Part shown: positions 45,774 through 64,000 of the stretch, in pieces
Layout of the letters: each line of letters opens with the position of its first letter
How positions within the stretch are numbered: the stretch's first letter is position 1
NCBI GenBank assembly: GCA_030681515.1
Contig: JAUXSE010000016.1
Span: 124,001 to 188,000, forward strand
DNA length: 64,000 nucleotides
Reading direction: 5' to 3'
DNA from: Geothrix sp.
GTDB lineage: Bacteria > Acidobacteriota > Holophagae > Holophagales > Holophagaceae
Notes under the pieces: generated by a model
Seen by the model: the letters and a program-made list of their open reading frames with translations, nothing else
What the model was told of the DNA's origin: nothing
Databases searched by the model: none
Made by a program: the position numbers and the translations under genes

Positions 45774-45967
45774 AGGCTCCAGGCCTCAGGCTTCAGTAAC
45801 AGCTTCCTGATGCGCCGCTGCGCGGCGCGATGATGGTTCAGTTTGGCGCCGGCCCAATTGAGCGGCCCAGAAAAATACACTGGCGTGGGCCGCAGGCCCG
45901 CATCAAAGATCATTTCCTGAAGCCTGAAGCCTGAAGCCTGAAGCCTGAAGCCTGAAGCCTGAAGCCT
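45774..45967. repeat. heptamer-ended palindromic element, no gene
   Basis: Left end: three heptamers AGGCTCC AGGCCTC AGGCTTC (45774-45794). Right end: seven exact copies of GAAGCCT (45919-45967), which is the reverse complement of AGGCTTC. The roughly 125-base interior has strong hairpins (GCGCCGCTGCGCGGCGC; GGGCCGCAGGCCC) and no reading frame. It starts two bases after the typA stop. Same end design as the four-helix-bundle element at 62943-63482. Confidence 0.75.
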
Positions 45968-46005
45968 GTCCCCCCAAGCCCGGTCCATTCGCCTACCCTG
46001 ATCCC

Positions 46006-61498: not shown

Positions 61499-62941
61499 AT
61501 GACCAGCTCGAACCAGTCCTCGGGTCCCAAGCCGATCCCCCCGCCCATCAAGGCCAGCTCCGGCCCCAAGCAGGTGCCTGCGGTGCCATCGCCCCGGCCC
61601 CAGGGCGCGGAGCTGCTGGCGGAGCTGATGCAGACCCAGCGCCAGCTCACCCAGGCCATGCACGAAACCCGGGATCTGCGCGCCAAGCTGGGACGGCGTT
61701 CCCACCAGATGCAGGTGCTCCAGCACGTATCCGAGATCCTGGCCGCCACCTCCAAGGGTGGACAGGTGGTCAGCGTGGTGTTGGACGTCCTGGCCCAGGA
61801 ATTCCATTGCCAGCGGGCCGTGGTGTGGGCGCTGGAGGACGGCGGCTCGGGCTATGTGCCCCGGGAGGGGACCGGGCTCCCCCGCGCCGAGTGGTCCGCC
61901 CTTCGGCTGCCGGCCCCGAATCCCTTTCCGGAGACGCCCCTGGTGCTCTTCCAGAGCCAATGGCTGGATCCGGCCTGCGGCGGCGAAACCCTCCAGGCCC
62001 TGCGGGACGGGGAGGGCCAGCAGCTCTATTTCGTCCCCTTCGAGCATCAGCTGCTGCTCCTGGGTTTCGCCATCCTGGCCATGCCGGGTGATCGCCGCCT
62101 GGAGGAGGAGGATCTCGATTCCATCGGCATCCTCCAGCGGCAGACCGCCATCTCCCTGTACAACGCCTGGCTGTTCCGGGATCTTTCCGAGCAGCGCGAC
62201 GCCCTTCAGCGCCAGGCCCTGGAACTGGAGCGCGTCAACGATGCCCTGCGGGAGGCCGATCAGCTGAAGAGCGAATTCCTGGCCCTCACCAGCCATGAGT
62301 TGCGCACGCCGCTGACGGGCATCCTCGGATTCACGCGCCTGGTCATGGATGGGCTCTACGATGACGCGGAAGAGATGCGGTCCATGCTCCAGGACAGCTA
62401 CACCTCCGGGCAGCACCTGCTGGGCCTGCTGAACGATATCCTCGACCTGGCCAAGATCGAATCCGGAAAGCTGGAAGTCCATCCGGAGCCCTTCAGCCTC
62501 GCCATCCTTCTGGAGGAAGTGAAACCCATCGCCGAAGCCTATCCCCGCCGGGCGGACGTGGAACTGTTCTGGCCGGACATGGAGGGCATCCCCGAGGTGG
62601 TGGTGGACCCCAGCCGTCTGAAACAGGTGCTTCTCAACCTGCTATCCAACGCCCTCAAGTTCACCAAGGAGGGCACCGTCGCCGTCCAGGTGGAGCGGCA
62701 TCCCGGCAGCATCACCCTGCTCGTCGTGGACACGGGCATCGGCGTGAGCCACGAGGCCCAGACGCGGCTCTTCCAGAAGTTCGCCCAGGCCGAAGGCGGC
62801 CACAGCCGCGAGTTCGGCGGCACGGGCCTCGGTCTCGTCATTTCCAAACACATGATGGAGATGATGGGCGGCACCATCAGCCTCACCAGCGAAGGGCTCG
62901 GGAAGGGCAGCACCCTGCGGATCACGATGCCGATCGCCTAG
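61499..62941 (+). CDS. soluble GAF-domain histidine kinase
   Basis: A 480-residue cytoplasmic kinase. A Pro-rich start, coiled coil (LMQTQRQLTQAMHETRDLRAKLGRR), GAF domain about 75-235 (VLQHVSEILAATSKGGQVVSVVLDVLAQEFHCQRAVVWALEDG), second coiled coil, HisKA FLALTSHELRTPLTGILGFTRLVMDG, and HATPase NLLSNALKFTKEG, DTGIGVSHEAQTRLFQKFAQAEGGHSREFGGTGLGLVISKHMMEMMGG. Divergent from the membrane kinase 65 bases away. No receiver domain linked. The gene ends two bases before the heptamer array. Confidence 0.92.
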   Translation: MTSSNQSSGPKPIPPPIKASSGPKQVPAVPSPRPQGAELLAELMQTQRQLTQAMHETRDLRAKLGRRSHQMQVLQHVSEILAATSKGGQVVSVVLDVLAQEFHCQRAVVWALEDGGSGYVPREGTGLPRAEWSALRLPAPNPFPETPLVLFQSQWLDPACGGETLQALRDGEGQQLYFVPFEHQLLLLGFAILAMPGDRRLEEEDLDSIGILQRQTAISLYNAWLFRDLSEQRDALQRQALELERVNDALREADQLKSEFLALTSHELRTPLTGILGFTRLVMDGLYDDAEEMRSMLQDSYTSGQHLLGLLNDILDLAKIESGKLEVHPEPFSLAILLEEVKPIAEAYPRRADVELFWPDMEGIPEVVVDPSRLKQVLLNLLSNALKFTKEGTVAVQVERHPGSITLLVVDTGIGVSHEAQTRLFQKFAQAEGGHSREFGGTGLGLVISKHMMEMMGGTISLTSEGLGKGSTLRITMPIA

Positions 62942-62942
62942 T

Positions 62943-63482
62943 AGCTATCGGCTATCAGCTATCAGCTATCGGTGGGTGGTCGCTCTGGTTTGGAATTTCG
63001 GGCGCGGGCGGTTGGTTTGGTTGATAACTTACCCACCAAGGAGGAGGTCATTTTCTTGATGGTCTGGACCTGCTCCACTAGTGATTTCGCCGAGGCCGAT
63101 GGGAGGTGGCCGAGATCGGATGCCAGGAGCAGTTGATACTCCAGCTCGGAGGCGGAGCCTAGGGCCATCTGGAGGAAACGGGCGAAGTCCGCATCCGATC
63201 CTCGTCCGCAACCTTCTGCGATGTTGGTAGGTATGGAGGTCGCCGCCCGCCGCATCTGATTGGTCAGGCCGAATTGTTCGGTCGCCGGGAAGCGCGAGGT
63301 TTCTTTGTAAATCGCGAGAGCGAGCTCGTGGGCATTTCGCCAGACGGAGAGATTCCGGAAGTCCTGCATCATCGGCCCTGGGGTAGCACTTAGTCTATCC
63401 TGGAACGGGGGCTGGATCCCGTCTGGCCCTAGCTGACAGCTGATAGCTGATAGCTGATAGCTGATAGCTGATAGCTATCAGC
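62943..63482. mobile_element. four-helix-bundle gene enclosed by inverted heptamer arrays
   Basis: Left array 62943-62970: four heptamers AGCTATC/GGCTATC. Right array 63431-63482: AGCTGAC then five AGCTGAT units and a closing AGCTATCAGCC. AGCTGAT in shifted register (GATAGCT) is the reverse complement of AGCTATC, so the arrays are inverted copies. They enclose one gene (62962-63372). The element begins two bases after the kinase stop and ends twelve before the next ATG, with almost no residual spacer. Confidence 0.7.
62962..63372 (-). CDS. four helix bundle protein (23S rRNA intervening-sequence-protein family)
   Basis: A 136-residue protein of the S23/four-helix-bundle family: FRNLSVWRNAHELALAIYKETSRFPATEQFGLTNQMRRAATSIPTNIAEGCGRG, FARFLQMALGSASELEYQLLLASDLGHL. 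Length and spacing are canonical, except for a basic, low-complexity tail (KPTARARNSKPERPPTDS). The TGA stop (62964-62962) lies inside the left heptamer array, which also encodes the last residues. Relatives lie inside 23S rRNA of Leptospira and elsewhere as scattered multicopy genes; biochemical function is unknown. They form pentamers like the Avd protein of retroelements. Confidence 0.92.
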   Translation of the reverse strand: MMQDFRNLSVWRNAHELALAIYKETSRFPATEQFGLTNQMRRAATSIPTNIAEGCGRGSDADFARFLQMALGSASELEYQLLLASDLGHLPSASAKSLVEQVQTIKKMTSSLVGKLSTKPTARARNSKPERPPTDS

Positions 63483-63494
63483 CACGGAGCCTTC

Positions 63495-64000
63495 ATGCCC
63501 TACACCCGCCGCCCCGACTTCCTGCCCTTCACCCGGCCCATGGTGGGGGAGGAGGAGATCGCGGAGATCATTGACACGATCCACAGCGGGTGGCTCACCA
63601 CGGGGCCTAAATCCGCCAAGTTCGAAGAGGCGCTGCAGGCCTACAACGGCGTGCCTCACTGCCTGGCCATGAACAGCGCCACCACCGCCCAGGAGATCAC
63701 GATGCAGGTGCTGGGGCTCCAGCCCGGCGACGAGGTGATCACGACCTCGCTGACCTGGGTGAGCACCCTCAGCACCGTGGTGTTGCAGGGGGGCGTGCCG
63801 GTGCTGGTGGACATTGATCCCGTCACCCTCAACCTCGATCCCGCGAAGCTCGAAGCCGCCATCACGCCCCGCACGAAAGGCATCATCCCCGTCCACCTCA
63901 CGGGCCTGCCCTGTCCCATGGACGCGATCTGGCGCATCGCGGAAAAGCACGGCCTCTGGGTCATCGAGGACGCGGCCCAGGCCATGGGCGCCCGCTACAA
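63495..64000 (+). CDS. DegT/DnrJ/EryC1/StrS-family PLP aminotransferase (3' truncated)
   Basis: ATG 63495 with GGAG upstream opens a frame that runs off the window. It reads FTRPMVGEEEIAEIIDTIHSGWLTTGPKSAKFEEALQAYNGV, LAMNSATTAQEITMQVLGLQPGDEVITTSLTWVSTLSTVVLQGGVPVLVDID, and VIEDAAQAMGARY where the Asp binds the PLP ring nitrogen. The family aminates nucleotide-linked keto-sugars for lipopolysaccharide or O-antigen. The catalytic Lys lies beyond the window. Its ribosome site directly follows the right heptamer array. Confidence 0.9.
   Translation, partial: MPYTRRPDFLPFTRPMVGEEEIAEIIDTIHSGWLTTGPKSAKFEEALQAYNGVPHCLAMNSATTAQEITMQVLGLQPGDEVITTSLTWVSTLSTVVLQGGVPVLVDIDPVTLNLDPAKLEAAITPRTKGIIPVHLTGLPCPMDAIWRIAEKHGLWVIEDAAQAMGARY

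Follow-up and report, generated by a model that had tools for sequence, protein, structure and literature searches.

A four-helix-bundle gene bracketed by inverted heptamer arrays in Geothrix points to an unrecognised self-spreading repeat system

Genes for four-helix-bundle (FHB) proteins and the tandem heptamer arrays that bracket them point to an unrecognised self-spreading system, which could account for several orphan heptamer repeats. The explanation that we prefer, with modest confidence, is a two-part self-spreading repeat system of FHB gene and heptamer arrays that works like RAYT/REPIN. The window, that is, the whole stretch of 64,000 nucleotides of Geothrix sp. DNA that was analysed, contains the following features.

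62943..62970, plus strand: left heptamer array, four units of the AGCTATC type, containing the FHB stop codon
63430..63482, plus strand: right heptamer array, six AGCTGAT-type units running opposite to those of the left array, with a short palindrome at its end
62962..63372, minus strand: FHB gene (S23/23S-IVP family), 136 aa, with PF05635 and TIGR02436 profile matches
63390..63404, plus strand: DegT-promoter-like segment TTAGTCTATCCTGGA, resembling the region before DegT in the FHB-free species G024, G026 and G032
61499..62941, plus strand: sensor histidine kinase gene, flanking and outside the element (open reading frame and profile match)
63495..64000, plus strand: DegT/DnrJ/EryC1 aminotransferase gene, flanking and outside the element, truncated at the window end
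45916..45968, plus strand: dispersed AAGCCTG array, seven units, of the heptamer type that brackets the second FHB copy (contig C60)
17048..17066, plus strand: short dispersed array of the AAGACTG type, found by array detection

The initial annotation described a single FHB gene between inverted heptamer arrays, with its stop codon and last codons inside the left array, and this arrangement is confirmed at 62943-62970 and 63430-63482. One base separates the histidine-kinase stop codon, TAG at 62939-62941, from the left array, whose units are, in order, AGCTATC, GGCTATC, AGCTATC and AGCTATC. The right array comprises AGCTGAC and five AGCTGAT units, with the terminal letters AGCTATCAGCC, and the ATG of the DegT gene follows at 63495, 12 bases beyond its end. 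The arms of the two arrays are inverted, 29-nt arms being 97% complementary and 20-nt arms 100%. The FHB stop TGA (minus strand, 62962-62964) and the last codons fall inside the left array, and the start codon may be the second Met at 63369, an alternative to 63372. The kinase-DegT gap (62942-63494) is made up of the left array, the FHB gene and the right array, with no further gene between the arrays. The bracket also encloses the segment TTAGTCTATCCTGGA, which separates the FHB gene from the right array and presumably serves as a promoter for DegT. Allowing up to two mismatches, the 14-mer AGCTATCAGCTATC has eight matches in the window, every one at the FHB locus, compared with 0.07 in shuffles. 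The minus-strand RNA of the gap has a folding z of -4.1, with the two arrays pairing.

Membership of the FHB family required a score above the curated cut-off across the full domain, and profile searches gave 132.6 bits (E 8e-39; cut-off 33.8 bits) for PF05635 and 130 bits (cut-off 24 bits) for TIGR02436, 'four helix bundle protein'. PF05635 is the only domain found in the protein, which contains no nuclease, transposase or reverse transcriptase motif.

The other FHB copies, which the initial annotation had suggested checking for inverted period-7 arrays, do have them, each locus with its own heptamer. The second copy in this genome lies between dnaK and dnaJ, and the inverted arrays around it consist of another heptamer, GGCTTCT/AAGCCTG. 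Within the genus, the orthologous dnaK-dnaJ gene carries three heptamer types, AAGCCTG (G000, G042, G029), AAGACTG (G025, G047, G007, G019) and GAGGACT (G031), both arms switching jointly where both are readable. G. rubra (G014) has its FHB gene at a different location, with a bracket of GGCAGTN. Within six genomes, the match of an arm to its own other arm averaged 19.8, compared with 8.3 for the arm of the other FHB locus. The dnaK-dnaJ gene appears broken in G042 (L048) and G019 (L050), by an early stop and a frame shift, with the arrays still there; at these loci the gene seems to have decayed before the arrays. One member of the Holophagaceae, G052 (L059, L060), has about 12 FHB-like genes, two of which adjoin hexamer rather than heptamer arrays (TCGTGC type).

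Array bracketing of FHB genes is a feature of many phyla and not a local oddity. When 84,980 species genomes were scanned, FHB loci turned up in Bacteroidota, Planctomycetota, Poribacteria, Chloroflexi, Verrucomicrobia, Spirochaetes and others, and the best 80 loci were examined. Strong period-7 arrays occurred on 30 of 153 near sides of these loci, compared with 2 of 141 far sides, while periods 3-6 and 10-12 gave no strong arrays at the same flanks. When upstream flanks were compared with downstream ones, the best inverted match had a mean of 13.9 in matched and 8.2 in mismatched pairs (p = 1.5e-21 for the difference, in a test that ignores phylogeny); far flanks gave 8.4. An inverted score of at least 14 was reached by 41% of 71 loci, compared with 0.8% of mismatched pairs, leaving about six in ten cross-phylum loci below that score. 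One polarity, with TNAG upstream, prevailed at 31 of the 33 loci that were informative. Loci from viral contigs, an independent set of 33, behaved similarly, with matched flanks averaging 17.2 and mismatched flanks 8.1 (p = 1.5e-15, again ignoring phylogeny) and a score of at least 14 in 61% of the loci compared with 1.5% of mismatched pairs. A phage vehicle for the gene was rejected: FHB genes were found in none of 50,697 phage records and at 33 loci in 2.9 million viral contigs, so this is not a typical phage gene. Several of the 11 cyanobacterial plasmid loci examined have clear inverted heptamers, e.g. AGGGAGT, GGGAAAA and TTAGCTT. On four such plasmids (L301, L304, L305, L307) FHB genes lie within the pairs cas6-cas4, cas10-cmr3 and nrdB-nrdA, positions that look like insertions into operons.

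The heptamers are also dispersed through the host genome, where they were called with simple patterns throughout. With up to two mismatches, a 21-mer of the left array has 70 genome-wide matches compared with 0 for the reversed control, spread over more than 20 places, mostly FHB-free. A sample of 852 kb showed a clear excess for period 7 and its multiples only, and included the further heptamers AAGCCTG and AAGACTG. The proposal that the arrays are the repeat ends of an element is therefore retained in part: inverted arrays do bracket the gene, but they are not private ends, being dispersed genome-wide and mostly gene-free. When three patterns were used to call arrays in the 852-kb sample, brackets of gene size appeared at the two FHB loci and nowhere else. 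A scripted bracket search over 3,450 open reading frames recovered the window FHB gene alone, missing the second because its reading frame continues through its array.

Dispersed arrays follow stop codons, occupy 5' untranslated regions or flank terminators. Several start exactly at the TAG that ends the gene before them, since the repeat unit reads T-AGCTATC. Classification of array positions from open reading frames was set aside as unreliable, since spurious frames arise in this GC-rich genome. Gene-less inverted doublets, with arms 8-130 bases apart, share the polarity of the FHB brackets in 11 of 11 cases. At one site (L108:6877-6977) a terminator hairpin lies between the arms, and the same hairpin is already present in the array-free orthologues of G011 and G035. 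One orthologous place has AAGCCTG units in G000 and GAGGACT units in G012. The gaps in G012 and G035 orthologous to the 45916-45968 site contain no AAGCCTG array; in the window, an inverted and degenerate partner lies about 150 bases upstream of that array. AAGACTG is the third heptamer type of this genome, in which no FHB gene of the AAGACTG type was found. No arrays were found by the detector used in 200-kb samples of the relatives G035 and G011, and G011 has five GARGACY matches elsewhere, outside its sample.

The heptamer type of the bracket tends to recur across the genome that carries it. Among 47 Geothrix genomes, each taken as independent with kinship ignored, YAGCYGA triplets number 40-256 in the six with a TAGCTGA-flanked FHB gene and have a median of 0 in the others; AGCCWGR counts are 10-106 where the bracket matches and 0 elsewhere, and GARGACY counts 6-76 and 0, respectively. 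The GGCAGTN type occurs in one of 77 Holophagaceae genomes, namely G014, whose FHB gene has the GGCAGTN bracket. Most array-free genomes also have no FHB gene. Exceptions exist, as 10 of the 41 Geothrix genomes without a TAGCTGA-bracketed FHB gene have at least five YAGCYGA triplets. Profile search found no FHB gene in these ten, three of which have a completeness below 90%. Five of the ten (G017, G039, G040, G043, G048) fall in the clade of holders, and loss of the gene is therefore likely there. A mismatch is seen in G031, where the gene is flanked by GAGGACT and the genome is rich in AGCCTGA arrays. Farther afield, the L163 and L188 genomes and the L301 plasmid abound in TTAGCTN arrays, as does the genome of L213, although the FHB gene examined there has other flanks. 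CAGTTNN arrays are abundant in Poribacteria, Niabella (L227) and Gramella (L201); the FHB arms of Niabella include TAACTGA units, and Gramella has long TAACTGA arrays.

Evidence on movement comes from the kinase-DegT site, which is filled in six species (G000, G007, G012, G038, G041, G045). Among 25 other relatives, 17 have kinase and DegT as neighbours, separated by 44-307 bases that contain no FHB gene, and so provide the empty sites that the initial annotation had proposed to look for; kinase beside DegT was not found in the other eight. Several of the 17 are array-rich, and by profile search these have no FHB gene anywhere. The empty gaps contain no array, array-rich species included. In a tree of the single gene DegT, holders are scattered among non-holders: G000 neighbours the empty G034, G041 the empty G040 and G048, and G038 with G045 the empty G043. 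Most FHB copies at this site differ at synonymous positions by 0.49-0.72, compared with 0.22-0.41 in DegT. The pair G038 and G045 departs from this, with 0.012 in the FHB gene and 0.219 in DegT. Their between-array block has 3 differences in about 460 positions, compared with 104 in 1480 for the kinase (Fisher p = 1.4e-9), so that the block is 99.3% identical while the genes just outside are about 93% identical and differences in DegT resume from codon 4. Since the block is near-identical and the flanking genes have diverged, this one case supports a recent exchange of the array-bounded block between the two species, by transposition or recombination. At the left arm of the FHB block in G038, contigs (L068:1-90, L312:1-130) break within a long run of TTAGCTG units, a one-letter variant of the heptamer that has expanded strongly at this place.

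Mobility, as originally suggested, thus gains from the empty sites in sister species, but the Geothrix gene occupies mostly two fixed sites and is under purifying selection, with dN/dS of 0.07-0.30 between well-separated orthologues. The further suggestion of a transposition or homing unit survives as one movement of an array-bounded block (G038/G045), and not as a classical small transposon. The expected target duplication did not materialise: none is visible when filled and empty kinase-DegT sites are compared, the entire intergenic region having been replaced. A plain IS or MITE was likewise ruled out, there being neither transposase nor target duplication.

The preferred two-part system draws on direct observations, namely bracketing, locus-specific co-variation of the arms, matching dispersed heptamers, fixed polarity, one interspecies exchange and arrays in FHB-free genomes. 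The mostly single-copy gene would have inverted arrays of a heptamer of its own on both sides. Copies of this heptamer, as single arrays or fixed-polarity doublets, would populate host intergenic regions, often right after stop codons or around terminator hairpins, and the whole array-bounded block would occasionally be transferred between species. As to how the arrays are made, we infer that a ring of the FHB protein, a homologue of the pentameric XCC0516 and of the Avd of diversity-generating retroelements, would bind the hairpin of its heptamer in single-stranded form, be it DNA or RNA. Host enzymes, whether of replication or repair or a reverse transcriptase, would copy the heptamer or insert it at intergenic hairpins. 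Slippage would then alter unit numbers, and gene loss would leave arrays behind. A broader and more tentative proposition, which falls slightly short of probable, is that PF05635 FHB proteins drive a pan-bacterial class of selfish tandem-heptamer DNA, each lineage recognising and propagating its own heptamer; on this view XCC0516 of Xanthomonas is predicted to lie between GGGAATC arrays. The orphan heptamers of cyanobacteria, Beggiatoaceae, Bacteroidetes and Xanthomonas would be its populations, and an Avd-like ring would recruit host replication, repair or reverse transcription with no known nuclease or transposase.

Other explanations invert or dissolve the link between gene and repeat. The arrays or hairpins might arise independently, an FHB cassette then homing in on them, as intervening sequences (IVS) replace rRNA helix loops, so that the gene merely displays the local heptamer. 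Arrays do occur without the gene, FHB-free genomes included, interspecies block exchange stops at the arrays, and IVS elements, which have inverted repeats at their ends, are found at helices of rRNA (PMC4990558); the polarity shared by brackets and doublets also makes a doublet a plausible landing site. Independent origin would, however, predict GGCAGTN arrays equally often in FHB-free genomes, whereas they occur only in the genome whose FHB gene has that bracket, and the absence of the gene from most array-free genomes and of arrays from empty kinase-DegT sites, even in array-rich species, makes this order of events unlikely. Still less likely is an RNA-level regulator, in which the FHB protein would bind arrays in 5' or 3' untranslated regions or near terminators, the bracket would serve autoregulation and the arrays would spread as useful sites. 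The array positions described above suit such a role, as do the post-transcriptional function proposed for TAACTGA by MacGregor 2015 (PMC4679880) and the finding that most Xanthomonas GGGAATC repeats are transcribed (PMC4692102). Array places nevertheless differ among related species and the heptamer type is swapped wholesale, unlike a conserved regulon, while many close relatives have no gene and the gene moves as a block.

A complete lack of connection, with slippage repeats and FHB genes both merely tolerated between genes and the G038/G045 exchange being ordinary homologous recombination, is very improbable. Variation in unit number fits slippage, no target duplication is seen and a recombination tract could finish near conserved gene ends; against this stand the matched-arm statistics in two independent sets, locus specificity inside single genomes, fixed polarity, the bracketing of FHB loci alone in the 852-kb sample and the match of heptamer type to gene. 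A chance microsatellite beside the gene was ruled out by the matched and mismatched arm tests. For a very common family of proteins that has no assigned function, the two-part system proposed here suggests a role that can be tested, and for orphan heptamer repeats it supplies a candidate driver gene. If true, propagation of repeats by an Avd-like bundle with no known nuclease would be a new selfish-DNA lifestyle in bacteria, bearing on 23S rRNA intervening sequences and on the role of Avd in diversity-generating retroelements.

Published systems resemble the present one in different parts. A search of the open-access journal literature brought up no paper that connects FHB genes with heptamer repeats. 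Orphan heptamers, namely the cyanobacterial STRR, TAACTGA of Beggiatoaceae, Cyanobacteria and Bacteroidetes (MacGregor 2015, PMC4679880) and GGGAATC of Xanthomonas (Rehm et al., PMC4692102), likewise form intergenic period-7 arrays of variable unit number near stop codons, and such arrays run across intergenic DNA here as well. The Xanthomonas repeat forms 70-75 convergent inverted pairs, mostly intergenic and near stop codons (PMC4692102). The accounts cited here name no linked gene, and for the spread of heptamers 'no mechanism is evident' (PMC4679880), whereas the present arrays bracket and match FHB genes. The 23S rRNA IVS with S23p, such as those of Coxiella and Leptospira, also enclose a PF05635 reading frame in inverted repeats (PMC4990558). 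IVS lie in an rRNA helix, unlike the present element, which has an S23-family reading frame with terminal inverted repeats in a gap between protein genes and no 23S helix insertion; it terminates in heptamer arrays of a kind that is dispersed as well.

Diversity-generating retroelements offer a structural parallel, as Avd (4DWL), which is essential for their retrohoming, is reported to be homologous to the PF05635 structure 2GSC, and XCC0516, a reported Avd homologue, is a ring of five four-helix bundles (PMC10053308); the solved homologue structures 2gsc and 2rld have five chains each. They differ in that no reverse transcriptase or template/variable repeat adjoins the FHB gene, whose neighbours are a kinase and an aminotransferase. 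REPIN/RAYT systems share with the present one a mostly single-copy gene in an inverted-repeat bracket, bracket repeats that also occur scattered over intergenic DNA, alone or in inverted doublets, and a repeat sequence that tracks the gene lineage (PMC8266576, PMC8049555). Here, too, the gene is bracketed by the matching repeat type and the dispersed doublets keep a fixed polarity. RAYT, however, is an HUH (Y1) transposase and REPs are single palindromes, whereas the FHB protein contains PF05635 alone, with no HUH domain, and the repeats are tandem heptamer arrays. Because protein and repeat architecture are unrelated, the FHB system is not a member of REPIN/RAYT though it appears to work alike.
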